A stretch of 21,076 nt of DNA. Source: a virus. The notes under the pieces were generated by a model that saw only the letters and a program-made list of their open reading frames with translations, was not told the DNA's origin and searched no databases. Location: IMG/VR virus record IMGVR_UViG_3300047550_005354, positions 1 to 21,076 of that record. The stretch is one strand, 5' to 3'. Below, piece by piece: positions 5,772-20,034 of the stretch (within the stretch, counting starts at the first letter, position 1; every line of letters begins with the position of its first letter). A program made the translations under genes and the position numbers.

Positions 5772-6077
5772 TTATTTTTGTATTTTTGTTATCTCTAATC
5801 TTGAGTTTACTATGTTGAAAAATATATCAGCCCATTCAACCCAATCCTTATATTTCGATTCCTTTTTTTCTATATCGTCTTTAGAATTAGGGTTTTTCTG
5901 AGGGTTGGGTATTTCTAAAGTGTTGAATGGCTCTAATTTGATAATTGTAGCTGCCCAAGAAACCCAGCTATCGTTGTCTTTCATTTTAGGTAATACAAAA
6001 TCTTCGTAGTCTTCAACTACGCTATCTCCCCATCTCTTAGGAGTAATGTGCTTATTTGGAGTAACACTAACAGGCAT
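5772..6077 (-). CDS. Small Trp-rich hypothetical protein, 101 residues
   Basis: I do not recognise a named domain. The protein is soluble-looking and charged. It contains two similar segments, DSWVSWAATI (about residues 36-45) and KDWVEWADIF (about 76-85), so it may consist of two related helical units separated by a Pro/Asn/Lys linker. Its ATG shares one base with the stop of the nozzle-like gene (TAATG), a sign of translational coupling. It precedes the ejection genes across the first larger gap after a long run of close genes. Small proteins with a W..WA motif sit at this position in other environmental podophages as I recall, but their role is not known to me. A small tail or ejection-associated structural protein is a reasonable guess. 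Confidence 0.7.
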   Translation of the reverse strand: MPVSVTPNKHITPKRWGDSVVEDYEDFVLPKMKDNDSWVSWAATIIKLEPFNTLEIPNPQKNPNSKDDIEKKESKYKDWVEWADIFFNIVNSRLEITKIQK

Positions 6078-7864
6078 TAAACTTGACTATCTCCCTCATC
6101 AGCCTCAAAAAAACTAACACCAGCTTTAAAAGCTACGTCTATATCTTCTCTTCCAAACTTAAACGCTATATTCCTTGCCTGAAAGTTTGATATAGTTATA
6201 TATTCGGTTTGTTTATTGAATGTAATTTTGTCTGATGTTATCGTTTGAGAGCTTGCAAAATTTTTGCCTAATATTTGTACATACATTTTGCTATTATTTA
6301 TATTGTTTCTAGTCTGACTTATAGCAAAATTAGGCTCTATTTGCTTTACTTGCATGAATTTTTTAGCTCCAACGGGCTGCTTGAAATTGTTAAAAGTTGC
6401 ATATGAAACCCAAGGGGTTACAAAATATGAGCTAATTAATCTAGGTGTATCCGCAGTTTGCACGCTTCTAGTATCCAACTCTCCAATTCCTGTTTCTAGC
6501 TTCCAAAAGCCTCTTATGTTATAAACTCCATTAAACGCTAAGCCATAAGTTAAAAAATCACCATCAGAATCAAATACGCTACTCTGTGCATCAATTTTAG
6601 TGCTATACCAGATATCGTCTTGAACATTATATATAATTGCATTTTTACATTCTCCTGCGGAGCCTTTTGTCGGATAAAACCACCAAATCTCATTTTTGGT
6701 AGGATACTTTACTGCAAAGACTCTTGATGCATGAGCATAATCTATATTTTCATGAAAGAACTGTTGGCTCATTGTATTTTTAAGTATATCAACAACGCCA
6801 CTGTAAGTATAAAAAACACCTTGCCCAACCCAATAGAAAACTCCGTTGAAATTCACTACACATTTGTTTGAAAGTATTGAAATCTCAGTAGTTATAACTT
6901 GAACATTGAACTTTATAGAATAGCCTTTCGTAGCATCCGTTAGCTCTCCTGAATTTGAAAACTTAATAACGCTGTTAGTCGTCCAAAAAATAATCGTTGG
7001 CGTTGTTGCTCCGCCTCTCGTTAGAGCTCCGTAGATGATTTTTTCATTAGATATTGCAATCGGTTTTTCTAAAATTTTACCTGGAATTAATAATACTTTT
7101 GGGTTTACATTTTCGATAAAAGTGTTTGCATAAGCCTCGCCTCTTGTACAAAATATGTGGCCGTCACTTCCGTAAAAAAATAAGTAAGGTGCACTAAAAA
7201 TAACACCGCCATCACCAGCAAATCCTTGGTCTTGAAATATTGGTGGTTGGTTTGGTTCTAATTGCAATTCTTCGTTTTCGGGTACGGGTTGATTTTTTAT
7301 TTTGCCTGCTTTTAGAACAAATGGGCCTTTTAAATTTGCTTGAGTTAATTGTTTTCCTTCTTCTAATAAATACATATAGCTTGGAATTCTACCTCTTTGA
7401 TTGGCTCCTAGCGTATCGTTTGAACTTACATAAAAAGCTATAAATTTTTTTTCATCAGTAGTAAAAAAAGGAAATATTTGAGTTACTGAAAAATATCCTC
7501 CGCCAAGTTCACCTCCGAGCTCAAGAGATTCGATGCGGGTTATTTGACTTCCAAAGTCAGGCCCTACAAAAATTTTTGGTATTTTATATAATTTAAATCT
7601 ACCATTTCTATCATTGATAGAAACAGAAAAATATACACAATTATTAATCGAAGCAAAAGTTCTAACATTACCAAAGTTAATTGGTTCTCCTTGATTGGGT
7701 ACGTTTCCATTTTCCATAGTAGGTATACTTTCAGTACCCCCCATGCTTTGTGGCATTTTGTTAACAAACCTTAACCACTGACTATCCGTACAATATTCTC
7801 CTTGAAAGCTTGAGCCATCTTTTAGAATGCCGGGTTTGTAAAGTATCGGTACAATAGTTCCCAT
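6077..7864 (-). CDS. Tail nozzle / packaged-DNA stabilisation protein (P22 gp10-like), 595 residues
   Basis: The N-terminus (residues 1-45) has PGILKDGSSFQGEYC, WLRF and then a GG-containing turn. This is the typical start of P22 gp10-type stabilisation or nozzle proteins in environmental podophages, where PG..KNG, W.D...RF and GGW are shared. The remainder is rich in beta-strand sequence with alternating hydrophobic/polar residues, as expected for a beta-propeller-like tail tube component. Role from the family: it attaches below the adaptor ring, plugs the portal channel after packaging and forms the distal tail tube. It follows the adaptor-like gene with a one-base gap (TGA-T-ATG), which supports joint expression. 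The length is somewhat above P22 gp10 (about 470 residues), but similar to marine relatives as I recall. The assignment rests on N-terminal motifs and position, not on a full alignment. Confidence 0.68.
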   Translation of the reverse strand: MGTIVPILYKPGILKDGSSFQGEYCTDSQWLRFVNKMPQSMGGTESIPTMENGNVPNQGEPINFGNVRTFASINNCVYFSVSINDRNGRFKLYKIPKIFVGPDFGSQITRIESLELGGELGGGYFSVTQIFPFFTTDEKKFIAFYVSSNDTLGANQRGRIPSYMYLLEEGKQLTQANLKGPFVLKAGKIKNQPVPENEELQLEPNQPPIFQDQGFAGDGGVIFSAPYLFFYGSDGHIFCTRGEAYANTFIENVNPKVLLIPGKILEKPIAISNEKIIYGALTRGGATTPTIIFWTTNSVIKFSNSGELTDATKGYSIKFNVQVITTEISILSNKCVVNFNGVFYWVGQGVFYTYSGVVDILKNTMSQQFFHENIDYAHASRVFAVKYPTKNEIWWFYPTKGSAGECKNAIIYNVQDDIWYSTKIDAQSSVFDSDGDFLTYGLAFNGVYNIRGFWKLETGIGELDTRSVQTADTPRLISSYFVTPWVSYATFNNFKQPVGAKKFMQVKQIEPNFAISQTRNNINNSKMYVQILGKNFASSQTITSDKITFNKQTEYITISNFQARNIAFKFGREDIDVAFKAGVSFFEADEGDSQV

Positions 7865-7865
7865 A

Positions 7866-8549
7866 TCAATTATTGCTGTCTATATTTCTGTCTGTTTTTC
7901 TTGATTCTTTTTGTTTTAATGCTGTGTCTAATAAGCCTTGATAAGCTTGTAAATAAGACATTTTTGTATCTTGGCTAGCCTTCACAAAAGTTGATGCTTC
8001 AACTAAGCACGCATAAAGTAGTAAATTATAAAATCTTTCAGTGTATATGTTTGTATTTGCGATAATTACGCTAGCAGGTATTGCATCGTAAGTTATCTGA
8101 TAATAATATTGCTGATTAGGTGTTGGTGAAACAAATATAAAATTATAAGCTTGATTTAATGCATCTGCAGCCCTTGGTTTATCGCAGTAATATTTGGGTT
8201 TTGGGGATATGTTGTTAGCTTCACTTGAATTTTTATTAAACGTTATACAAAATTCAAAATCTCTTTTAAGAAGTATTGTTGAGTCTTGGTATATATTAGC
8301 ATCATTGCCAACAACGATATTTTTTGTTTGATACCAATTTGCAGGCTTTTCAACGAAAGGGTCTCTAATTCTAAATTGAGCTGTTGCTACAACTTGCTCT
8401 AAAGCCATATCTTTAAGCGCTTGCCAAAGTCTTTGCTCACCCAAGGTAATAATAGTATCTAGATTACTATCTGTAAACCCTGGATCGTTTTGACTTCTAG
8501 CTAAAAAACTTCTAATATCAGCTCTTAGAGCAGCAACGTTTTTTGCCAT
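7866..8549 (-). CDS. Head-tail adaptor-like protein, 227 residues
   Basis: The first 45 residues (ALRADIRSFL, FTDSNLDTIITLGEQRLWQAL) match the helical start of short phage adaptor/neck proteins: an amphipathic helix, then F-D-LD--I--GE-RL. The middle is beta-rich and contains PKYYCDKPRAADA and FIFVSPTPNQQYYYQITYDA, a pattern in which strands lead to P.P...Y.Y.I.Y, typical of the same group. The C-terminus is helical with LLLYACLVEA, resembling the last helix of gp4-type adaptors. ATG 8549 directly abuts the TAA stop of the 464-residue fibre gene, with no ribosome site. A longer gp4-like adaptor is also present at 17335-18378, so the two may occupy successive rings of the neck or tail. An alternative is a fibre-connecting ring protein. 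Confidence 0.62.
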   Translation of the reverse strand: MAKNVAALRADIRSFLARSQNDPGFTDSNLDTIITLGEQRLWQALKDMALEQVVATAQFRIRDPFVEKPANWYQTKNIVVGNDANIYQDSTILLKRDFEFCITFNKNSSEANNISPKPKYYCDKPRAADALNQAYNFIFVSPTPNQQYYYQITYDAIPASVIIANTNIYTERFYNLLLYACLVEASTFVKASQDTKMSYLQAYQGLLDTALKQKESRKTDRNIDSNN

Positions 8550-10531: not shown

Positions 10532-13500
10532 TTAATATTCAAGAATTATTGCTCCAGCTGCTCCAGTGCCCCCAACTGTTCCTGCTGATGCTGTTGTTGC
10601 TGAAACACAAGCTCCACTTCCACCCGCACCATAGGAGTTTGTATCAGCGTTTTGTCCAGATAAACTACCTCCTGAGCCATTTGTCGAAGGTCTTGCTACC
10701 CCTTTTGCACCTTTTCCCCCGTATTCACTAGCGCCGTCCCCACCATCACCAGAAGCAGGATAAGCATTGTTGGTATTTTGAGTTATAAAGTTTGAACAAC
10801 CCCCCCTGCCCCCTCTTAAATTTATGTCTCCACCACTACCAACGCCACCGATTACTCCTGTTAAAGAAGGGTTTGTACCACCTGGATATATTGCTCCACC
10901 AGTTCCACCAGTTGCGGAAATTGTTGAAAATGTTGTAGTGCCACCAGTTCCACCAGCCGCTCCTAATGCCCCAGCTGTACCCCCAGCTCCGATTGTATAG
11001 CTGATAACTTGTCCTGGTGTTACAGATAAAACGCCGATTGATGCACCACCACCAGCTCCACCACCAGAAGCACTATTTAAAACTCCACCAGCTCCACCTC
11101 CTCCACCACCAATTGCGGTTACCTTGATTTTTGTAATGCCTGCTGGAACTGTAAAAGAGCCAGTTGTCGTTAATAAAGCCAAAGTTGGAATAAATCTTAA
11201 TGAATCAGCATAAGTTTTATTTACTGCTTGATTAGCTGTAGTCGGAAGTGCTAAATTATCAATATTAGTACTATTCATATCAATACCAGCTTTTGCAGTA
11301 AGCAAAGCATTAGCAAGTATTGTATTAAATACACCAGAAATACCTTGCGAAGCCGTACCAGAGCCAATGCTTGGTGCTACTAACAAAATATGTAAATATC
11401 CATTTTGCGGAACTGATCCTGTTTCTTCAAGATATATTTCTGCCGTAGTATTTGAAACTGTCCTATAAACTAAAGTATAAATATCGTTTGCAACACTACT
11501 TTGAGTTGCGTCAAACCACTGAACAATAACTAAAGGAGCATAACCAGCATCGCTATAAGTAATATTGACGGCAGATTGACCGTTAGTACCAGAAATATTT
11601 GTTTTAAATGCAGTAAGTATTGCTCCTGTAACTGTCAAATTTCCAATGGGATTTCCACCAACATCACCTGCGTATACAGTACCACTTCTAAGATTAGAAG
11701 ATATAGTATTGTTAGCTATAACGTTTACAGCACTAAAAAAATCACTTATCTGAGAGGATGTAATGTTAGTTAGCGTAGTAGTTATATTTCCACTAGATAA
11801 ATTCCCACTCCCAGTTATCGCTCCAGTTAGAGCAATGTTTCTAGTATCAACATAGTTTTTAGTTGATGCATCTTGAGCCGAAGTGGGGTCTAGTACATTA
11901 ATTAACTTTTGAGTATTTAAATTTAGGCTAGAAGTCGGTATTGACATCTGATCGAGTCTACTTGTTCTAACTTGAGTATCAAAGCCAGTTACCTGAGAGG
12001 GTATGATGTTAGTTAGCGTAGTAGTTATATTTCCACTAGATAAATTCCCACTCCCAGTTATCGCTCCAGTTAGAGCAATGTTTCTAGTATCAACATAGTT
12101 TTTAGTTGATGCATCTTGAGCTAGGGTAGGGTCTGCTAAAGATACTATTTTATGTGAATTTAATTTTAAGTCTAAATTGTTATCAATAGTTATATCGGTG
12201 CTATTTAAAATAGTCCCAACATTATTTCCCCACAATGCTAATGCATTTGTTGTAGTATTAGCGTTTCCAGTAACATTTCCACCAGAGGTTGGATTTGTAT
12301 AATACCAAGTCGGATTTGCTCCTCCTGTGGTTGCTAAAAGCTGTCCTGTCGTTGGCGTAGAGTTCGGTAATGTTATTGATATGTCCTGAAGTGGCGTTGC
12401 CGCTTGAAGCGTTGTAGAAAAATTAGAATTATTATTTTTAAAAACTAGATTTGGATTATTTGTTGTATTAAACGTTAATTGACTAGTTTTTGCTGTATTT
12501 ATTATATTAACGTTATTATAAATATTATTAATAGTTGCGTTGCTTAGTGTCGTATCTCCAGCAACATTTAATTTGCCTTGAATTTCAGTGTTGCTTGTAA
12601 CGCTTAAAGTACCAGCCAAAGAAGTTGAACCAGTAACGCTTAATGTATTATTTGATATGAGTGCACCGCTTGCAGTAATGCTGCTAGCTGTAATATTTTT
12701 ATTTGTAGTTAAGTCATTAACTAATACTGGATTTTTATTTAATGTGATATCTTGAACAGATGTACTTCCCGCAACTGTTAGTGTATTTAAATTACTACCA
12801 TTACTTACAGTTAAATCTTTTAGTGTAGAGCCATTATTTACAGTCAAATTATTTAATGTTGTACTACCAGTGGTGATTAGATTATTCAAATTTGAATCAC
12901 TTGTAATAGTTAGGTTTTTAGATGACGTAGTATTTAGAACGTTTAAGTTGTTATTAGCTGTAACATCTCCCTTTAAAGTAGAGTCATTATTTACAGTTAA
13001 ATCTTTTAGTGTAGAGCCATTATTTACAGTCAAATTATTTAAAGTAGTATTTCCAGTAGTAGTAAGATTATTTAGATTTGAGTCGCTTGAAATAGTTAGA
13101 CTTTTAGATGATGTAGTATTTAGAACGTTTAAGTTGTTATTAGCTGTAACATCTCCCTTTAAAGTTGAGCCATTATTTACAGTCAAAGTGTTTAAAGTAG
13201 AGTTATTGTTTACAGTCAAATTATTTAATGTTGTACTACCAGTGGTGGTTAGATTATTCAGATTTGAATCACTTGTAATAGTTAGGTTTTTAGATGACGT
13301 AGTATTTAGAACGTTTAAGTTGTTATTAGCTGTAACATCTCCCTTTAAAGTAGAGTCATTATTTACAGTTAAATTATTTAATGTTGTGTTTAAATTTACG
13401 CTTAAATTGTTGGCTTCTAAATCATTAAGCTGAGCAAATCCTGTTGAAGAAATGTTATTTATAATTAAACCACTAGTTACGTTTAAAGTGTTTAAATTGG

Positions 13501-14272
13501 CAGTACCTAACGCTGTAAAGTCACTAAAAGTAGAGCTATTATTTACAATCAAAGTATTTAATGTAGTACTACCAGTGGTGGTTAGATTATTCAAATCACT
13601 ATTACCCAAAATAGTTAATGTTTGTTTGCCTATTATATTACCTTCGACTGTAACGTTTTCGGTTACATCAATATCTCCGTTTACATCTAAACATACATTT
13701 ACAGTAGCCTGATTGAATGTTGGTGCATTTTCTAGTTCTAGGGATATTGCCTTAAGTTGATTTCCTTTTATATCTCCTGTCGTTGTAATATTTCCATCAA
13801 CTTTAAGGCTTCCCGCTATTTTGTCTACAACTGTTAATTCCTCAATAGTCGCATCATTACAAGCAAATGCTCCAAATACCTCAACATCGTTAAATTTTGC
13901 TAGCGTTTCTGATGTTATTTTTCCTTGTATCGTTGCTTCTTTTTCGACTATTAAATTTCCAGTGAGCTTACAATCGTTAAATTCAACATCGCCACCAGGC
14001 GCAATTCCGCCTCCTACACTTACCCAATTATTTGTCGCTGGGCTATAATACTCAAGTGCATTATCAACGTTATATACAATAGTTCCTGGTCTAATACTTA
14101 TTAGTTCACCTTTGCTATTGTATTTATGAATATTCTGTATTTTATTTCTTTGTTCCTGAGTAACAACAGGAGGGCAAAGTCCCGTTGCTGTGTCTGTCGT
14201 CCCTTTTATGGGGTCGGATTCTATTGCGAGTCCATCAAATTTTGTGATGCTATTTGGGTCGTCTTTAGCCAT
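10532..14272 (-). CDS. Long repeat-built tail fibre with glycine-rich tip, 1246 residues
   Basis: Residues 1-90 are an anchor-like module (LCPPVVTQEQRNKIQ, GTIVYNVDNALEYY, NNWVSVGG). Residues about 120-600 are built of short beta repeats of the type NLTVNN-STL, including three near-identical 62-residue units at about 291-476. A PTTGQLLATTGGANPTWYY motif is followed by N-LALWGNNVGTIL-STDITI, both shared in type with the 464-residue fibre. DPT-AQDASTKNYVD, a common fibre module, occurs twice (about 715 and 796), with a weaker third version (NQAVNKTYAD). Residues about 1027-1246 are a glycine-rich domain opening SFTVPAGITKIKVTAIGGGG and ending GAIILEY. This type is found at receptor-binding ends of phage fibres, and T4-like gp38 adhesins also use polyglycine folds. 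It is probably the main receptor-binding fibre. It is the first gene after an extended -10 box and follows the patatin gene. Confidence 0.82.
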   Translation of the reverse strand: MAKDDPNSITKFDGLAIESDPIKGTTDTATGLCPPVVTQEQRNKIQNIHKYNSKGELISIRPGTIVYNVDNALEYYSPATNNWVSVGGGIAPGGDVEFNDCKLTGNLIVEKEATIQGKITSETLAKFNDVEVFGAFACNDATIEELTVVDKIAGSLKVDGNITTTGDIKGNQLKAISLELENAPTFNQATVNVCLDVNGDIDVTENVTVEGNIIGKQTLTILGNSDLNNLTTTGSTTLNTLIVNNSSTFSDFTALGTANLNTLNVTSGLIINNISSTGFAQLNDLEANNLSVNLNTTLNNLTVNNDSTLKGDVTANNNLNVLNTTSSKNLTITSDSNLNNLTTTGSTTLNNLTVNNNSTLNTLTVNNGSTLKGDVTANNNLNVLNTTSSKSLTISSDSNLNNLTTTGNTTLNNLTVNNGSTLKDLTVNNDSTLKGDVTANNNLNVLNTTSSKNLTITSDSNLNNLITTGSTTLNNLTVNNGSTLKDLTVSNGSNLNTLTVAGSTSVQDITLNKNPVLVNDLTTNKNITASSITASGALISNNTLSVTGSTSLAGTLSVTSNTEIQGKLNVAGDTTLSNATINNIYNNVNIINTAKTSQLTFNTTNNPNLVFKNNNSNFSTTLQAATPLQDISITLPNSTPTTGQLLATTGGANPTWYYTNPTSGGNVTGNANTTTNALALWGNNVGTILNSTDITIDNNLDLKLNSHKIVSLADPTLAQDASTKNYVDTRNIALTGAITGSGNLSSGNITTTLTNIIPSQVTGFDTQVRTSRLDQMSIPTSSLNLNTQKLINVLDPTSAQDASTKNYVDTRNIALTGAITGSGNLSSGNITTTLTNITSSQISDFFSAVNVIANNTISSNLRSGTVYAGDVGGNPIGNLTVTGAILTAFKTNISGTNGQSAVNITYSDAGYAPLVIVQWFDATQSSVANDIYTLVYRTVSNTTAEIYLEETGSVPQNGYLHILLVAPSIGSGTASQGISGVFNTILANALLTAKAGIDMNSTNIDNLALPTTANQAVNKTYADSLRFIPTLALLTTTGSFTVPAGITKIKVTAIGGGGGGAGGVLNSASGGGAGGGASIGVLSVTPGQVISYTIGAGGTAGALGAAGGTGGTTTFSTISATGGTGGAIYPGGTNPSLTGVIGGVGSGGDINLRGGRGGCSNFITQNTNNAYPASGDGGDGASEYGGKGAKGVARPSTNGSGGSLSGQNADTNSYGAGGSGACVSATTASAGTVGGTGAAGAIILEY
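11763..11878. repeat. 116-base direct repeat, copy 1 (inside the long fibre gene)
   Basis: By reading base for base, this segment is identical to 12006-12121. The spacing is 243 bases, an exact number of codons (81). It encodes AQDASTKNYVD followed by RNIALTGAITGSGNLSSGN and TTTLTNI. Perfect identity, including third codon positions, points to a recent duplication or conversion. Confidence 0.9.
12006..12121. repeat. 116-base direct repeat, copy 2 (inside the long fibre gene)
   Basis: Partner of 11763-11878 with the same 116 bases. Between the copies lies a different 127-base spacer encoding the SQVTGFDTQVRTSRLDQ region and the next DPTSAQD junction, so only part of the 81-residue unit is conserved. 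Confidence 0.9.
12845..13402. repeat. Three tandem 186-base repeats inside the long fibre gene
   Basis: Units begin at 12845, 13031 and 13217 (plus strand), an exact 186-base period, or 62 codons. The first 158 bases of the first and third units differ at only two sites by my reading. The middle unit is clearly diverged in its first half but shares a stretch of about 53 identical bases with both. A shorter, more diverged part-copy lies near 13552-13615. Each unit encodes NLNNL-TTG-TTLNNLTV, STLKGDVTANNNLNVLN and TSSK-LTI-SDS blocks. It is a coding array, not a CRISPR. Confidence 0.9.
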
Positions 14273-14326: not shown

Positions 14327-15457
14327 TTAAATTTTGAATGTATCAATAAAAGCTGATATTTTGAATTTGTCGATTGTAAATTGTTGTTCTGAAACGCTTT
14401 GCATGTAAGCCAAAAATTCTGGTGTTGTAGTATCTAAATCAGTGTCTTTAGTTGTGTCTAATATTGAATTAAAACGATAATAATAAAAATCTTTATTGGC
14501 TATTTTTGTGCCGTAGTATGACAAAACTTGTAATGCTTGATGTACATGTTCTTGAGAACCTGTCAGTGATGCACTAAAAGAGTCAAGTAGTAAATATATA
14601 TTTTCAAAATTAGGTATTATTGAGCTTACGTGAGCTTCGGCTTGAGATTCTGTAAGTCCTTTTTTTTCAATTAAAAATTGTTTAATCTCAGGTGGAGTAA
14701 TCGGTTGAGGATCGAATAATCCAATCGTTCCAAGTCCTGTTCCAACCGAACACAAAGAAATCTTAGAAATAGATGGAAATAATGCGTTAATCAAGCTAAA
14801 CGAAGCTAGAGATGGATTGTTGCAAAATAAACCACCATCAATCATCCATTTTTTTAAAGGGTCTGGATTTACTATACTAGAACTAGGAATAGGAATTGGT
14901 GGCAAATAAAGGGGTGCTGCTGATGTTGAAAGTGCAACATCGACTATTTTTTTGCTATGTCCTTCTAGTCCTGGAAATTTTATGTTTGAATAATAAACTG
15001 GTCTTATTGAGCGTATGTCGGCTCCAACATTTGCAACATCTCCAGTTGTAATCTCAAGAGATGGTATTAATACATTAGCTTTTAAATCGCTCATTAATGC
15101 ATTGCCAAACACTGATTCTAGTTTTTGTCTTAATGCTGTGTTTTGATAATATGTCTCATCGCCATAGAGTAGCGTTAATATTTTTTGAGTAGTTGAGACG
15201 GGCGGAGAAAAAATCAAAGGCCCATCGTTAATATAAAAATCTATTAATTGTTGTGGTGTTAAGCCAAAAGCTAGACCTAGAGATATAATGCCACCTGTAG
15301 AAGTTCCTGAGAACAATGTTACAATTTTATAAAAATCTGTTTGATTTATACTAATTAAATTAGCAAAGTTTTTATAGAAAACGCTACTATATAAACCTCT
15401 CATTCCCCCACCATCGTTAGTAAAAATTAAAGCTTTATCTGAAAAGTTTGAATACAT
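14327..15457 (-). CDS. Patatin-like phospholipase, 376 residues
   Basis: All catalytic landmarks of the patatin family are present in order: DGGGMRG (residues 15-21, oxyanion loop), GTSTGG (51-56, nucleophile Ser53 in G-x-S-x-G), STSAAPLYLPP (177-187, a family-typical block) and DGG with NNP (207-214, catalytic Asp207). Known family activity is hydrolysis of acyl esters of phospho- or glycolipids by a Ser-Asp dyad. No signal peptide or membrane helix is visible. The ATG at 15457 follows ACACAAAAAAAAT without an SD. The gene lies between two fibre-type genes, on the same strand, with gaps of about 50 bases, and its base composition is like that of its neighbours. Possible roles are a virion-borne enzyme for crossing or modifying the envelope, a late lysis helper, or an accessory moron. 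Patatins are also effectors in CBASS (CapV), but no nucleotide cyclase or Cap gene is nearby. The family call is firm and the role is inferred. Confidence 0.92.
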   Translation of the reverse strand: MYSNFSDKALIFTNDGGGMRGLYSSVFYKNFANLISINQTDFYKIVTLFSGTSTGGIISLGLAFGLTPQQLIDFYINDGPLIFSPPVSTTQKILTLLYGDETYYQNTALRQKLESVFGNALMSDLKANVLIPSLEITTGDVANVGADIRSIRPVYYSNIKFPGLEGHSKKIVDVALSTSAAPLYLPPIPIPSSSIVNPDPLKKWMIDGGLFCNNPSLASFSLINALFPSISKISLCSVGTGLGTIGLFDPQPITPPEIKQFLIEKKGLTESQAEAHVSSIIPNFENIYLLLDSFSASLTGSQEHVHQALQVLSYYGTKIANKDFYYYRFNSILDTTKDTDLDTTTPEFLAYMQSVSEQQFTIDKFKISAFIDTFKI

Positions 15458-15507: not shown

Positions 15508-17073
15508 TCAATTCATTGGCGGTATCGTGTACTCAATGCCGCCAATAACTATTTTTCTTTCATTTGTTATTTTTTGAGCTAGGGTTTGTTTGGCAACGGG
15601 CAAAGGCAATACAGTAATTGTTCTAGTCAAAATCGATATAACGCCTGCTTCATCAGTAGAAAAAAATGGCCCAACAATTATTTCTTGGATATCTGGAGCT
15701 GGTAAAGATTCAGGTATAAACTGAGTTATAAATTCCACTTCACCAGTACCCAAAATAGGGGAAGCGTAAGTAATGCTGTAAGGTATTAATACTTCTGTTG
15801 CTAAAAGTTGAGATTCCCAAAAAAGAGTTCCAGGTGAAATTTTAGAAGGCGATAAAAAATAAAAACTAGTAATAGCAGGCAAAAGAGGTGGAGCGGGCCA
15901 ATAATAAGTCCCCACAGAACCTACTTGGCTTTCAAATGTAATACCAGAAAAAGTAATACTTTTATTTCCTTTAACATTATTACTTGCAGTTAAGTTGCTT
16001 GTTATATTAATGCCGTTTGTGGCTTCTAATTCTATTGTACCTTGGGCACTATAAATATTTACATCGCTTTTAGAATTAATTGTTGATGAGCCATTTGTGT
16101 TAAGTCTAAAAGTCGAATATTGATTTTTTATTATTGTTGCTGATTTAGAATTTAATAGTATATCGCTATTTAGAGTTCCGTTGTTTGCTAATAATACAAT
16201 ACCATTGCTATCGTTAATAGTAATTGATGTATTATCTGTATTTGTTTTAAATGAAAGTGTGTTTGATGAGGAATTTATATTTTCTTCGCTCTTTATTGTT
16301 ATCGAAGAGTTTGCGTTAGTAGTCTTAATATCAATTTTATTTCTAGCGATAAAGGCAGTATTATTCTTGCTGCTAATAGTCATTTCTCCAGCGTCATCTA
16401 CGTCTCCTACGCTAATAATCACTTGTGTGTTATCTTGTATGTTGATGCCGTTAATTGACCCTAGGTTAAAAACTCCGGTGTCAAACGAAGTGCTATTTGT
16501 AGCTTTGCAAGTAAAACTGTTTGTTGGAAATAGCGTAGCGTCTGGTCTTATTGTAATGTTTCCTATAAGTTCAGCAAAACCAAAGCCTGTAAAAAATCCA
16601 GGGGCGATTGGTTTGCCAAAAACGGGCACCAAAACCCCATAATTAAGCCTTTCAAATACAGCGCTAACGCCATATTGACTGACGCTTAAAAGTTCAAAAG
16701 TATCAATTAGTGCCTTGTTATTAATTGTTGTAGAGTTTAAGATTGAGGTGTTGATAGTTTGTTTGTTGTCAATATTGTTGGAATAAACATGATCCGCATA
16801 CAAATTTGTAACGTCTACCTCATTTACTATAATTTTGCCAGCTCTGATAGTCCCCGCATAAATCTCGTTAGCTTCTAGATAATTAACATGAACTTCATAA
16901 GAGTTAATATAATAATTGTCTATTGAGCCACTTTTAATATAATTAACTTTTAATATTTGAGCATTAAGATTTTTGATAAAAGAGTAGTCAATTGGAGTTA
17001 AGCCATCTCCTTTGTTTGCTCTATCTATAAAATTTTTCTTTTTTCTATCAAAGCCAGCGTCAAAATTAATCAT
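15508..17073 (-). CDS. Beta-helix-like tail/fibre structural protein, about 521 residues
   Basis: After a charged N-terminus (FDRKKKNFIDRANKGDG) comes a run of short repeated strands (LEANEIYAGTIRAGKIIVNE, VTNLYADHVYSN), then a Ser/Thr/Asn-rich region with regular I/L/F spacing (about 225-390), as in beta-helical or triple-stranded fibre shafts. The last 130 residues are Pro-rich and beta-rich (YYWPAPPLLP, ending GGIEYTIPPMN) and may be the tip or an attachment domain. I chose ATG 17073, which overlaps the preceding stop by 8 bases. An in-frame TTG at 17082 would add three residues. The gene opens the fibre cassette directly after the neck genes. No enzyme motif is seen, so it could be a fibre, a tail spike shaft or a tail-side appendage. 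Confidence 0.7.
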   Translation of the reverse strand: MINFDAGFDRKKKNFIDRANKGDGLTPIDYSFIKNLNAQILKVNYIKSGSIDNYYINSYEVHVNYLEANEIYAGTIRAGKIIVNEVDVTNLYADHVYSNNIDNKQTINTSILNSTTINNKALIDTFELLSVSQYGVSAVFERLNYGVLVPVFGKPIAPGFFTGFGFAELIGNITIRPDATLFPTNSFTCKATNSTSFDTGVFNLGSINGINIQDNTQVIISVGDVDDAGEMTISSKNNTAFIARNKIDIKTTNANSSITIKSEENINSSSNTLSFKTNTDNTSITINDSNGIVLLANNGTLNSDILLNSKSATIIKNQYSTFRLNTNGSSTINSKSDVNIYSAQGTIELEATNGINITSNLTASNNVKGNKSITFSGITFESQVGSVGTYYWPAPPLLPAITSFYFLSPSKISPGTLFWESQLLATEVLIPYSITYASPILGTGEVEFITQFIPESLPAPDIQEIIVGPFFSTDEAGVISILTRTITVLPLPVAKQTLAQKITNERKIVIGGIEYTIPPMN

Positions 17074-17323
17074 AATTCTCAAATCTTGGTCTTGGGTTTT
17101 TCACTGGGGCTGGGTCTCTTGATGGCAATGGAGGTCTATTTTGCTCATTCGGTTCATCATAAAAAGGTCTTCCGACCATCATTCCAGTCCATATTAGCTC
17201 GTTGCCTACCCATTCCATTTTTTTTACTAAATCGGTTGTGTCAAAAACCATCATTGATAAGTCGCATCTTCCGACTGTATCGTTTCCAGACGTTCTTTTT
17301 CCGCTTGCGTTTTTAAATCTCAT
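17066..17323 (-). CDS. Small neck-region protein resembling a degenerate zinc ribbon, 85 residues
   Basis: The layout GRCDLSMMVFDTTDLVKKM, EWVGNELIWTGMMV, then a Pro-rich end (RPPLPSRDPAP) parallels small phage proteins with two CxxC pairs, an (E/Q)W-GL-VC..C core and a DPRPPQ-type tail. Here only one of the expected four cysteines remains (CDLS in place of CxxC, TGMM in place of the second pair), so metal binding is probably lost. It lies between the gp4-like adaptor and the first fibre-type gene. In relatives I recall, the homologue also sits in the head-tail region, but its function is not known to me. The match is a pattern comparison from memory, not an alignment. Confidence 0.68.
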   Translation of the reverse strand: MRFKNASGKRTSGNDTVGRCDLSMMVFDTTDLVKKMEWVGNELIWTGMMVGRPFYDEPNEQNRPPLPSRDPAPVKNPRPRFENYD

Positions 17324-17334
17324 TTATTAATTTT

Positions 17335-18378
17335 TTAACTATTTATATTTGTTAATTGATATGAAACTTTTGGAACATTTTTTGTAATAGCTTTTTGCAA
17401 TGCGTCTTCGTATCTCATTTTTAAAGCCTCTGCTCTGTCTGGTGCATATTGAGTAGCTAACATTTCAGCTACACCTAAGGTTAAAGCTAAAATAAAAGCG
17501 TAAGGAATGTTTGGAGCTTCTAGGAAAGTTTCTAATGTTTCAAATACGCTTTGCCCTAGATAAATAATTTGAGAATTATTAGTTGTGGGGAGCGGCCAGA
17601 CATACATCATTGGGGTAATCTGATAGTCTACATAATACATAGTACAGCGATAGTTTTTGTAGAATTTGATAGGTCTATCCATGTAATCACTTCTAGACTC
17701 TTCAGTCATTCTTAAATCTTGAATATTATTGTTAAAATACAATTCTTGTATATTTAGTGTTGCTCCGCCTGTTTCTCTTATACGATAATAAAGATAAGTA
17801 TTTAACGATAAATTAGTTTCAAAATAATAGCTTTGATTTTGTTTATAATTTTGTTTTGGTATTTCTAAAATTGTTGTGTAATTAACCCCATCATTTGAAC
17901 CTTCAAAAGTGATTGTATATTCTTTGTCATCTTCAGAAATAACGCCTAAAATATCAACAGAAACAGGGTTTGAGAACTGCATACCAATATTTCCGTCTGT
18001 AGCATCTTGAGTACATGCAGTATTTTTATTGCCATCAAATGCATTGGCAGCAACACCAGAGCTAGCAAAGGCAATACCTAAATTATTTCTGACATAAGTT
18101 CTAAAAAAAGCCTGTAATACATTTTGAATATTGTAAGGTAGTTCATAATAACGTTTACCTGGTATTGTATTTATTACATTTGTCTTGATAGTCCAAACGT
18201 GAATATTTCTATTAAACCAATCGGATAAGATTAAATTTACTGAGTTTCTTGAAGACTCAAGTTGCTCTCCTGTGATAGAAGACGATTTAATGCCAATTAA
18301 TTCAAATGATTTTTTGATAATAGTATCAATAGTATCAACTGAATTAAAAAAGCTATAACTATTAGAGCTATTAATCAT
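17335..18378 (-). CDS. P22 gp4-like head-tail adaptor with inserted discoidin-like domain, 347 residues
   Basis: Residues 1-95 (a helical start, ITGEQLESSRNSVNLILSDW, then the strand GKRYYELPYNIQNVLQAFFR) and 220-335 (RMTEESRSDYMDRPIKFY, MMYVWPLP, then the helix LALTLGVAEMLATQYAPDRA) match the gp4/adaptor family, which binds the portal after DNA packaging. Between them, residues about 100-217 form a separate beta domain with discoidin/F5-8C features: SSGVAANAFDGNKNTACTQ, GNIGMQFSNPV, FEGSNDGVNY and a final YYRIRETGGATLNIQELYF strand. Such domains usually bind sugars or lipids. Its start overlaps the previous stop in ATGA (18375-18378), indicating translational coupling. Gene order (capsid, unknown, adaptor) supports the call. 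Confidence 0.78.
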   Translation of the reverse strand: MINSSNSYSFFNSVDTIDTIIKKSFELIGIKSSSITGEQLESSRNSVNLILSDWFNRNIHVWTIKTNVINTIPGKRYYELPYNIQNVLQAFFRTYVRNNLGIAFASSGVAANAFDGNKNTACTQDATDGNIGMQFSNPVSVDILGVISEDDKEYTITFEGSNDGVNYTTILEIPKQNYKQNQSYYFETNLSLNTYLYYRIRETGGATLNIQELYFNNNIQDLRMTEESRSDYMDRPIKFYKNYRCTMYYVDYQITPMMYVWPLPTTNNSQIIYLGQSVFETLETFLEAPNIPYAFILALTLGVAEMLATQYAPDRAEALKMRYEDALQKAITKNVPKVSYQLTNINS

Positions 18379-19058
18379 ATTTGTAGTATTTGTGCTGTAA
18401 GTGGGCGGTTATCAGTATTTTGAGTAATTTGTATTAAAAGTAACGCCGTAGTCGAATTAAGATCAAAGCATTTTGTTCGATCCTCAGCTTCACGTATCAA
18501 ATAAAAATACTTTTTATCAATCAAATCTTGATAAAGGCCTCTTTTTCTATTTAATGAACCTAAAATATTGTATTTTACGTTTGCATCGTCAGCAGGATCG
18601 ATTACAAAATTAATAGCATACTCAAGAGTCTTTCTATAATTGTTTACGTCAAAAGTCGTCAATGTAAAAAAACCAATTTTATCTGTTCCGATGCTTACGC
18701 TTCCAACCACAACCCCAGCGTGCTCAATTTTGTAGATATAATCATAATAATTGTTTGAAGTTACTGTATCATTATTAGGCCCCCCAATATTCTCAATAAT
18801 ATCAACACCATTTTGTCTACCATATATTACAAATTCTGCAGCACTCATATTTTCAGCAGAAGTAAAATTTAGCTTTCTAACCACTGATGCGTTCAGGCTG
18901 TTGTTATAAGAAAAATCAATATTTTTATAAGTATTTTTATTTGAGAATCTACCATTCAAATTTAACGGAGTATCTGCTATTAACACTTGCGATAAAGCTA
19001 TATCATTATTATTTGATGCTGGCCAATTAAGTTCTTGATAATTTGATGTTGTGAACAT
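18375..19058 (-). CDS. Phage structural protein of unknown role, 227 residues
   Basis: Predominantly beta protein. The central block reads VRKLNFTSAENMSAAEFVIY, then a GPNNDTVTSNNYY turn, then EHAGVVVGSVSIGTDKIGFF. I recognise this pattern from small virion proteins of environmental phages, where L-SA-N-SG--F-I-G, the GPN--TV-S--Y turn and VSVGT recur. It may be a neck or capsid accessory protein, but no function is established to my knowledge. The start is ATG 19058 with an AATTAAAAAA leader and no SD. The stop overlaps the adaptor start (ATGA). The gene comes after the hairpin that follows the capsid gene, so its expression may be lower than that of the capsid protein. Confidence 0.7.
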   Translation of the reverse strand: MFTTSNYQELNWPASNNNDIALSQVLIADTPLNLNGRFSNKNTYKNIDFSYNNSLNASVVRKLNFTSAENMSAAEFVIYGRQNGVDIIENIGGPNNDTVTSNNYYDYIYKIEHAGVVVGSVSIGTDKIGFFTLTTFDVNNYRKTLEYAINFVIDPADDANVKYNILGSLNRKRGLYQDLIDKKYFYLIREAEDRTKCFDLNSTTALLLIQITQNTDNRPLTAQILQI

Positions 19059-19113: not shown

Positions 19114-20034
19114 TTAGGCAACTGGTGCTCCTTGAGCTCCAATGATACCTCTTGGAGTTATTGAAAATGAAAATCTTGCACTAGCCGTATAATATTCTTT
19201 TCGCTCTAGTGTTGCCATTTCTTTTTCGTATTCGATATTTTGACGTTCGAAGTGTATTCTTTCGTCTTCTTTATCAGTTAAACCAAACCAGTTTGAATTG
19301 CTGGATAAATAAACAGATGTGATGTAAGGCATATTTGGAAATAAAAACTTAATAGCATTTACATCATTATTACCGACCGCTGGTCTGAATTCAGATTTTA
19401 GTAATCTAATCATCTGAAACTCAAGAGCCGCTGGTATAACAAGCTTAGTAAGTTTCATATTCATTGGATTGCCTGCTGGGTCTTTCATATACTTTGCAAG
19501 TAAAATTGCCTGCTCAAGTCCTGCTTCCGATAAATCAACATATATATTATTTCCGCCCACTCTGTTCGACCATGTGCCATTGATACAAGGATGAAGAGAT
19601 GAAGCTAATGGCTGTCCATCAGGTAACTGAGTATCGTTAAAAGCTGTATTTAGTATGTTGAAACCTAAAATTTCTTTTTGTTTTTCGATAGATTCAAACA
19701 ATGCTTTTGATGTATTATTGAATTCTTTTACATAATACAAATTGTCATCTTTTGCTTCTTTTGTGAAGCCTACAGTTTTTGCTACAGTTAAATGAGTTAC
19801 TCTGTATGTGATATCCGTTGTTAATGAAACAGGGTCTAATCTTTGGCCTTCCTGGATAATGGAAGCTGGTGTTAATGGCATAGCATCAGTCCAATATTCC
19901 ATTGCTCTTTGTGATTTTTTACTTGCTCCGTAAACTTTTGAGTACTCCCTTTCAACATTTCCCCAATTGTCTCTAATTTTGTAAAGCCCTGGTCTTAAGT
20001 AGGGCTCAATATTACTTCTAAAAGTTATTGACAT
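19114..20034 (-). CDS. Probable major capsid protein (HK97-type fold), 306 residues
   Basis: The length, the position just after a capsid-associated protein and before the neck genes, and the layout suggest the major head subunit. The N-terminal arm (residues 1-60) contains YLRPGLYKIRDNWG. A stretch of alternating strands and helices follows (TYRVTHLTVAKTVGFTKEAK; EAGLEQAILLAKYMKDPAGN). The PAALEFQMIRLLKSEFRPA region (about 205-225) and the C-terminal strand ARFSFSITPRGIIGAQGAP recall capsid subunits with the HK97 fold, including the gpT-like group. No protease or scaffold sequence is fused to it. Its leader is an almost pure A/T stretch of TTAAA units, and a hairpin follows the stop, both consistent with special expression of an abundant protein. 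No single diagnostic motif exists, so the call rests on context. Confidence 0.65.
   Translation of the reverse strand: MSITFRSNIEPYLRPGLYKIRDNWGNVEREYSKVYGASKKSQRAMEYWTDAMPLTPASIIQEGQRLDPVSLTTDITYRVTHLTVAKTVGFTKEAKDDNLYYVKEFNNTSKALFESIEKQKEILGFNILNTAFNDTQLPDGQPLASSLHPCINGTWSNRVGGNNIYVDLSEAGLEQAILLAKYMKDPAGNPMNMKLTKLVIPAALEFQMIRLLKSEFRPAVGNNDVNAIKFLFPNMPYITSVYLSSNSNWFGLTDKEDERIHFERQNIEYEKEMATLERKEYYTASARFSFSITPRGIIGAQGAPVA

Follow-up and report, generated by a model that had tools for sequence, protein, structure and literature searches.

The window analysed here—the whole 21,076-base stretch of virus record IMGVR_UViG_3300047550_005354—encodes a podophage head-tail adaptor that carries an inserted module with a predicted discoidin/CBM32-like fold. 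The adaptor gene lies on the minus strand (17335..18378; 347 aa), and the module spans residues 98-217 of its product (17728..18087, minus strand), in close agreement with the original prediction, which had placed a discoidin-like domain at 17730-18080 (residues ~100-217) and was right to within a few residues. Residues 98-217 are a true insertion, with the module present in many related viruses and absent from many others. Its predicted fold, its probably exposed site and the signs of its exchange lead us to favour, tentatively, a lectin-like role facing host or matrix.

The open reading frame at 17335-18378 encodes a gp4-like adaptor, as had been proposed. The family phrog_12985 matches the protein best over residues 16-81 (E=1.2e-15) and SU10_adaptor (PF24175) over residues 232-330 (E=1.6e-5), the latter, at 25.9 bits, a little short of its cut-off (27); the 86% identical adaptor of relative L002 scores 33.6 bits, above that cut-off, and PF24175 is matched at E<=0.01 by 24 of the 25 members of our alignment A3. 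Fold matches of an insertless relative, described below, point to the same identity. In the AlphaFold2 model, the N-terminal helices of the adaptor core (residues 16-61, 18196..18333; helices 17-27 and 37-56), recognized by phrog_12985, precede the first part of a small beta, or fibre-dock, domain (residues 62-97, 18088..18195), delimited from the model, the alignment with insertless relatives, the fold of one of these and the T7 and SU10 papers. Strand 84-97 runs into the insert and strand 208-226 leaves it; the second part of the beta domain (residues 218-278, 17545..17727) continues with strands up to residue 278, and the C-terminal core helices follow (residues 282-333, 17380..17535; helices 293-311 and 313-333), with the SU10_adaptor stretch as sequence evidence. 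All of these parts are on the minus strand.

In the ORF list, the large structural genes of the record lie on the minus strand. They open with a 289-aa protein, the major capsid protein, which is Mu gpT-like (19114-20034), a protein of 227 aa and the adaptor. Next come a small protein, a first fibre-like protein (15508-17082), a patatin-like one and more fibre-like proteins, these being long; a second adaptor and a nozzle come last. The second adaptor (7866..8549, minus strand) belongs to the same family (SU10_adaptor, E=4.6e-13 over residues 4-216), lacks an insert and adjoins the nozzle gene (6077..7864, minus strand), whose product is a P22 gp10-like 'stabilization' protein (phrog_3287, E=1e-18; 29% identity to the 'phage stabilization protein' of MW202545) that we take to be the equivalent of P22 gp10. 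This phage thus has two adaptor-family genes, of which only that at 17335-18378 bears the insert. A PF24175 search of five related records found at least two places in three of them (of the three in DSL-LC04, two belong to a single gene that spans the start of the record), one in Caulobacter phage RW, which is not its insert-bearing gene, and none in the record of L003, whose adaptor scores below the threshold there. Among the structure matches, the solved tail of GP4 likewise contains two such adaptor chains, and a paper reportedly treats the two adaptors of this phage.

Several neighbouring genes deserve mention in their own right. For the 227-aa protein (18375-19058), neither the family searches nor tblastn against 50,697 phage records gave a match; a counterpart sits at the same position in L002 and L003, with no match in the other loci compared. 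Among the fibre genes, a patatin-like phospholipase (14327-15457; PF01734, E=1.2e-20) occupies the same position in L002, and a 1246-aa fibre-like protein (10532-14272) shows near-repeats in its translation and ends in a glycine-rich domain (PF21722, E=5.7e-13). The small protein directly after the adaptor (17066..17323, minus strand) has 47% identity over 34 aa to L003. In 13 related loci read by eye, eight with and five without the insert, the adaptor is followed by a similar small ORF, in many cases with a CxxC motif; that of L003 is incomplete. As similar genes also follow insertless adaptors, this small gene was rejected as a specific partner of the module.

The classification of the module rests on its fold. 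Flanked on both sides by the adaptor-family matches, residues 106-185 match PF00754 (F5_F8_type_C; E=1.5e-4) with 22.3 bits, below the curated cut-off of 28.2, and the module is hence not counted as a member of that Pfam family. In alignment A3, PF00754 reached E<=0.01 in five of 25 members, although 19 of the 25 carry the stretch; the insert alone hits the 'tail protein' family phrog_17517 (E=5.2e-6). Searched against the PDB, the single window protein hit a CBM32 chain only at E=0.04; with a profile of 25 sequences, that chain, 4a42, came up at E=2.4e-4. The AlphaFold2 model computed from these 25 sequences (mean pLDDT 80.2, pTM 0.60; block means 77-94 over residues 101-220) contains a beta-sandwich separate from the adaptor core. 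Foldseek related this model to 156 PDB chains at E<=0.001, and the 50 of them listed are CBM32, F5/8C or other discoidin-type domains (APC10, galactose oxidase) or multidomain glycosidases. With VIA-align, residues 95-218 of the model superpose on 4a42 with Z=17.6 and an rmsd of 1.9 Å over 120 residues, and its best-ranked matches are carbohydrate modules of the CBM32, CBM62 and related kinds. The resemblance of the modelled module to a discoidin/F5-8C/CBM32 beta-sandwich is well beyond chance, and neither continuity of the fold with the adaptor core nor a lack of similarity to carbohydrate-binding jelly rolls was found.

Comparison with related adaptors delimits the insertion. In an alignment of eight proteins, the stretch is present in the window, L002 (86% identical), L003 (34%) and MW202545, shortened in Caulobacter phage RW, and missing in HTVC023P, CRP-902 and DSL-LC04. 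The larger alignment of 25 members has the stretch in 19, and the six without it share a gap at the identical place. Relatives without the insert, whose existence was one of the points to be checked, are abundant: scanning IMG/VR with the insertless DSL-LC04 adaptor yielded at least 600 relatives, and in the 80 loci kept no match spanned more than 666 bases, leaving no room for 360 more. The corresponding scans with the MW202545 and RW adaptors gave 289 and 178 matches (sets that may overlap outside the kept loci), of which 80 each were kept, and all 80 MW202545-type and all 80 RW-type loci retain a module-length protein or match. These scans start from short peptides and detect close relatives only; for the window adaptor they returned few—L002, L003 and two insertless adaptors, L172 and L173.

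Other collections extend this picture. BFVD holds a protein of the same length as the window adaptor and 42% identical to it (A0A6J5RSL2); several further viral proteins there (~280-420 aa) can be aligned to the greater part of the window model, with poor rmsd, and may be adaptors with other inserts. Within a phage collection, 12 records match the window adaptor and five cover at least 80% of the query, four of these five being isolates of one species (PMC11053796); for records H10-H12 the alignment covers the N-terminal part. Genome contigs scanned with the window adaptor gave no relative, and the MW202545 adaptor found a single 27-kb contig of a Betaproteobacteria MAG, encoding an adaptor 85% identical to that of MW202545 (L254:6001-7053)—perhaps a phage contig binned there, and a possible hint at hosts. 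On a core tree of 34 rows in which long branches meet, the insert label needs two changes, and a single clade is not rejected (p-AU 0.202). The module occurs in several environmental phage lineages, including a shortened form in phage RW, which is cultured on C. vibrioides.

The original prediction was right that the domain is inserted into an adaptor; it had placed it between the two halves of that protein, and our models place it instead at the tip of a hairpin inside the small beta domain. This assignment draws on the insertless relative L103, whose model (mean pLDDT 78.4) matches 22 PDB chains of 184-243 residues at E<=0.001, all from phage tail, neck or connector structures and among them VP1, A4, GP4, SU10, N4, phicrAss001 and T7. 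VIA-align scores include those for A4 (Z 13.3), GP4 (Z 12.1 over 199 residues), T7 gp11 (Z 11.1) and SU10 (Z about 10), to be read with the caveat that the fits are loose (about 3-7 Å) and that helical bundles reach high scores easily. P22 gp4 aligns with Z 12.0 over only 105 residues, which fits its missing dock domain: according to the structural papers, the T7 and SU10 adaptors combine a helix bundle with a beta fibre dock, and P22 lacks the dock (PMC6702177, PMC9509320), unlike the window adaptor, which shares the helix bundle with P22 gp4 and has a gp10-like nozzle encoded nearby. L103 has the fold of helix bundle and dock domain, and the window model has matching elements; L103 strands 78-88 and 95-98 are the counterparts of window strands 84-97 and 208-226, with the insert between them. 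As modelled, then, the graft sits at the tip of a beta-hairpin within the fibre-dock domain. By analogy with solved adaptors, a ring of about twelve copies would sit on the portal. The proposal that the module projects outward as a collar remains plausible by inference, since the hairpin that bears the insert is part of what the T7 and SU10 papers name the fibre dock, and since SU10 dock loops protrude radially and hold fibres; hairpin, ring and projection are read here from monomer predictions.

Known systems share parts of this architecture. The adaptors of SU10, T7 (gp11), GP4 and cyanophage A4 have the helix bundle and the small beta dock and are related to the window protein in core sequence and fold, but the 22 matching solved chains have no room for the module, whereas here ~120 residues are built into the dock hairpin. 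The adaptor of roseophage R4C, a siphophage, likewise bears an additional beta domain external to the ring; this domain is Ig-like, N-terminal and in touch with the capsid, in contrast to a discoidin fold in the dock hairpin (PMC10276861). A discoidin-like domain in a virion protein is also known from the phage LKA1 tailspike, where it is the C-terminal domain of a lyase tailspike rather than an insertion in an adaptor (PMC5701251). With the CBM32/F5-8C modules of bacterial glycosidases, such as 4a42, the window module has in common a DG..T motif, a weak sequence relation and, at Z 17.6, the fold; unlike these, it is embedded in a virion ring protein and scores below the Pfam cut-off. In the literature searched (titles and the starts of abstracts, hence weak evidence of absence), no podophage adaptor with a domain of the discoidin or CBM type was found.

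Three residues of the module, D115 (18034..18036), T120 (18019..18021) and, in its last strand, E212 (17743..17745; all minus strand), are invariant in 77 of 77 MW202545-type loci as well as in the window, L002 and L003. In CBM32/F5-8C structures such residues bind structural Ca2+, and the three putative ligands probably do so here. The shorter RW-type modules, three of which match F5/8C weakly (E=0.001 to 0.011), have a gap at D115 in 80 of 80 sequences as aligned and keep E212 in 13. Invariant in both clades (77 + 80 loci) are G145, R199 and N217, with S161 conserved in 75/77 and 80/80.

The insert changes faster than the adaptor core: among the 77 MW202545-type loci its mean pairwise identity is 0.685, versus 0.774 for the core, and among the 80 RW-type loci 0.668 versus 0.783; mean entropy is 0.82 bits in the insert and 0.67 and 0.55 bits in its flanks. 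The mean identities by themselves would suggest that the insert is inherited together with the core, a view that the correlations and departure counts speak against. Core and insert identities correlate with 0.49 over 2926 MW202545-type pairs and 0.80 over 3160 RW-type pairs, and in the former the mean insert identity is higher at a core identity of 0.6-0.7 (0.697) than at 0.7-0.8 (0.648). The N and C parts of the adaptor served as controls. The insert departed by more than 0.15 from its mean difference in 292 of 2926 MW202545-type pairs, the N part in 17 and the C part in 34; among 3160 RW-type pairs the counts are 34 for the insert and 1 and 0 for the two controls. Individual pairs illustrate both directions: L188 and L225 are 0.96, 0.67 and 0.99 identical in N part, insert and C part, and L078 and L012 are 0.65, 0.86 and 0.70, with sliding DNA identity rising over the insert; for L188 and L219 it is 0.74-0.84 over the insert and 0.9 and above in the flanking stretches. 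Compared with three MW202545-type loci, the window has 33-39% identity in the insert, 27-32% in the N flank and 19-20% in the C flank, which fits exchange or a different constraint. Taken from pairwise comparisons that share loci and are hence non-independent, these figures are a strong hint, not proof, that the module has been partly exchanged independently of the core. Among pairs with a core identity of at least 0.9, insert similarity was coupled to the downstream region no more strongly than to the upstream control, over the 450-1950 bases beyond the adaptor that the comparison reached (Spearman 0.41 downstream, 207 pairs, and 0.48 upstream, 193 pairs, for MW202545-type loci; 0.39, 299 pairs, and 0.58, 331 pairs, for RW-type loci). 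On this ground, and within that reach, the idea that insert type goes with the downstream, fibre-encoding region was rejected.

Several readings of the module were weighed. One of the two adaptor-family proteins of this podophage would carry its ~120 residues on the tip of the dock hairpin, so that in the assembled neck an insert-bearing ring near the head would hold about twelve modules outward, just below the capsid vertex and facing the surroundings. There they could attach weakly and reversibly to host or matrix polysaccharide and add avidity to the fibres, and a structural Ca2+ would keep each module rigid. That the grafted CBM32-like module gives the neck about twelve host- or matrix-facing, probably weak glycan binders is our leading interpretation, to which we give somewhat less than an even chance; it is ranked above docking because the partly independent exchange appears to resemble that of host-facing modules. 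Against it stand the RW-type modules, which as aligned lack D115 throughout, the structural look of the invariant residues and the many relatives without a module. A docking role would moreover be natural, as the site is the one where fibres dock in T7 and SU10. This position makes a docking or bracing collar a serious rival, a real possibility if on balance a doubtful one: an enlarged dock, with modules that bind no glycans but serve as holders of fibre or collar proteins or as contacts with the capsid, making the head-tail joint stiffer. It agrees with the assignment of this domain to fibre attachment in the T7 and SU10 papers, with the capsid contact described for the Ig-like attachment domain of the R4C adaptor (PMC10276861), and with RW-type modules that keep G145, S161, R199 and N217 in 80/80 loci without D115, as if the scaffold outlived the putative Ca2+ site. 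It is weakened by the lack of a partner among the genes considered, the small gene after the adaptor occurring with and without the insert, by insert similarity that tracks the nearby downstream region no better than the upstream one, and by the independent exchange, which fits a fixed structural role less well.

Two further explanations carry less weight. An insertion merely tolerated at an exposed hairpin, of no important function, would suit both the abundance of insertless relatives and the faster change of the insert, which fits relaxed constraint; we consider it improbable in view of the invariance of D115, T120 and E212 in 77/77 loci and of G145, R199 and N217 across both clades, and of the retention of a module-length protein or match in every one of the 80 + 80 kept loci. 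That the stretch is a long loop of the adaptor core resembling F5/8C domains by chance is a reading to which we give almost no credence: Pfam scores under the curated cut-offs and the 14 of 19 insert-bearing A3 members unmatched at E<=0.01 speak for it, but the separate globular domain in the model, its Z of 17.6 to CBM32 and its clean absence in relatives refute it, as far as the model is trustworthy.

Adaptors are commonly regarded as compact connectors; in this one, a module of lectin type appears to be built into the fibre dock. In its widest form, which we think rather unlikely to hold in full, our interpretation would give many aquatic podophages some twelve Ca2+-dependent lectin modules on the fibre dock of the neck, exchanged among phages and binding host or matrix glycans independently of the fibres, as an additional adsorption organ that some lineages have and others lack. 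Should the module prove to be a glycan binder, a neck component would have to enter models of podophage adsorption; should it serve docking, it would exemplify how a dock domain is enlarged by domain grafting.
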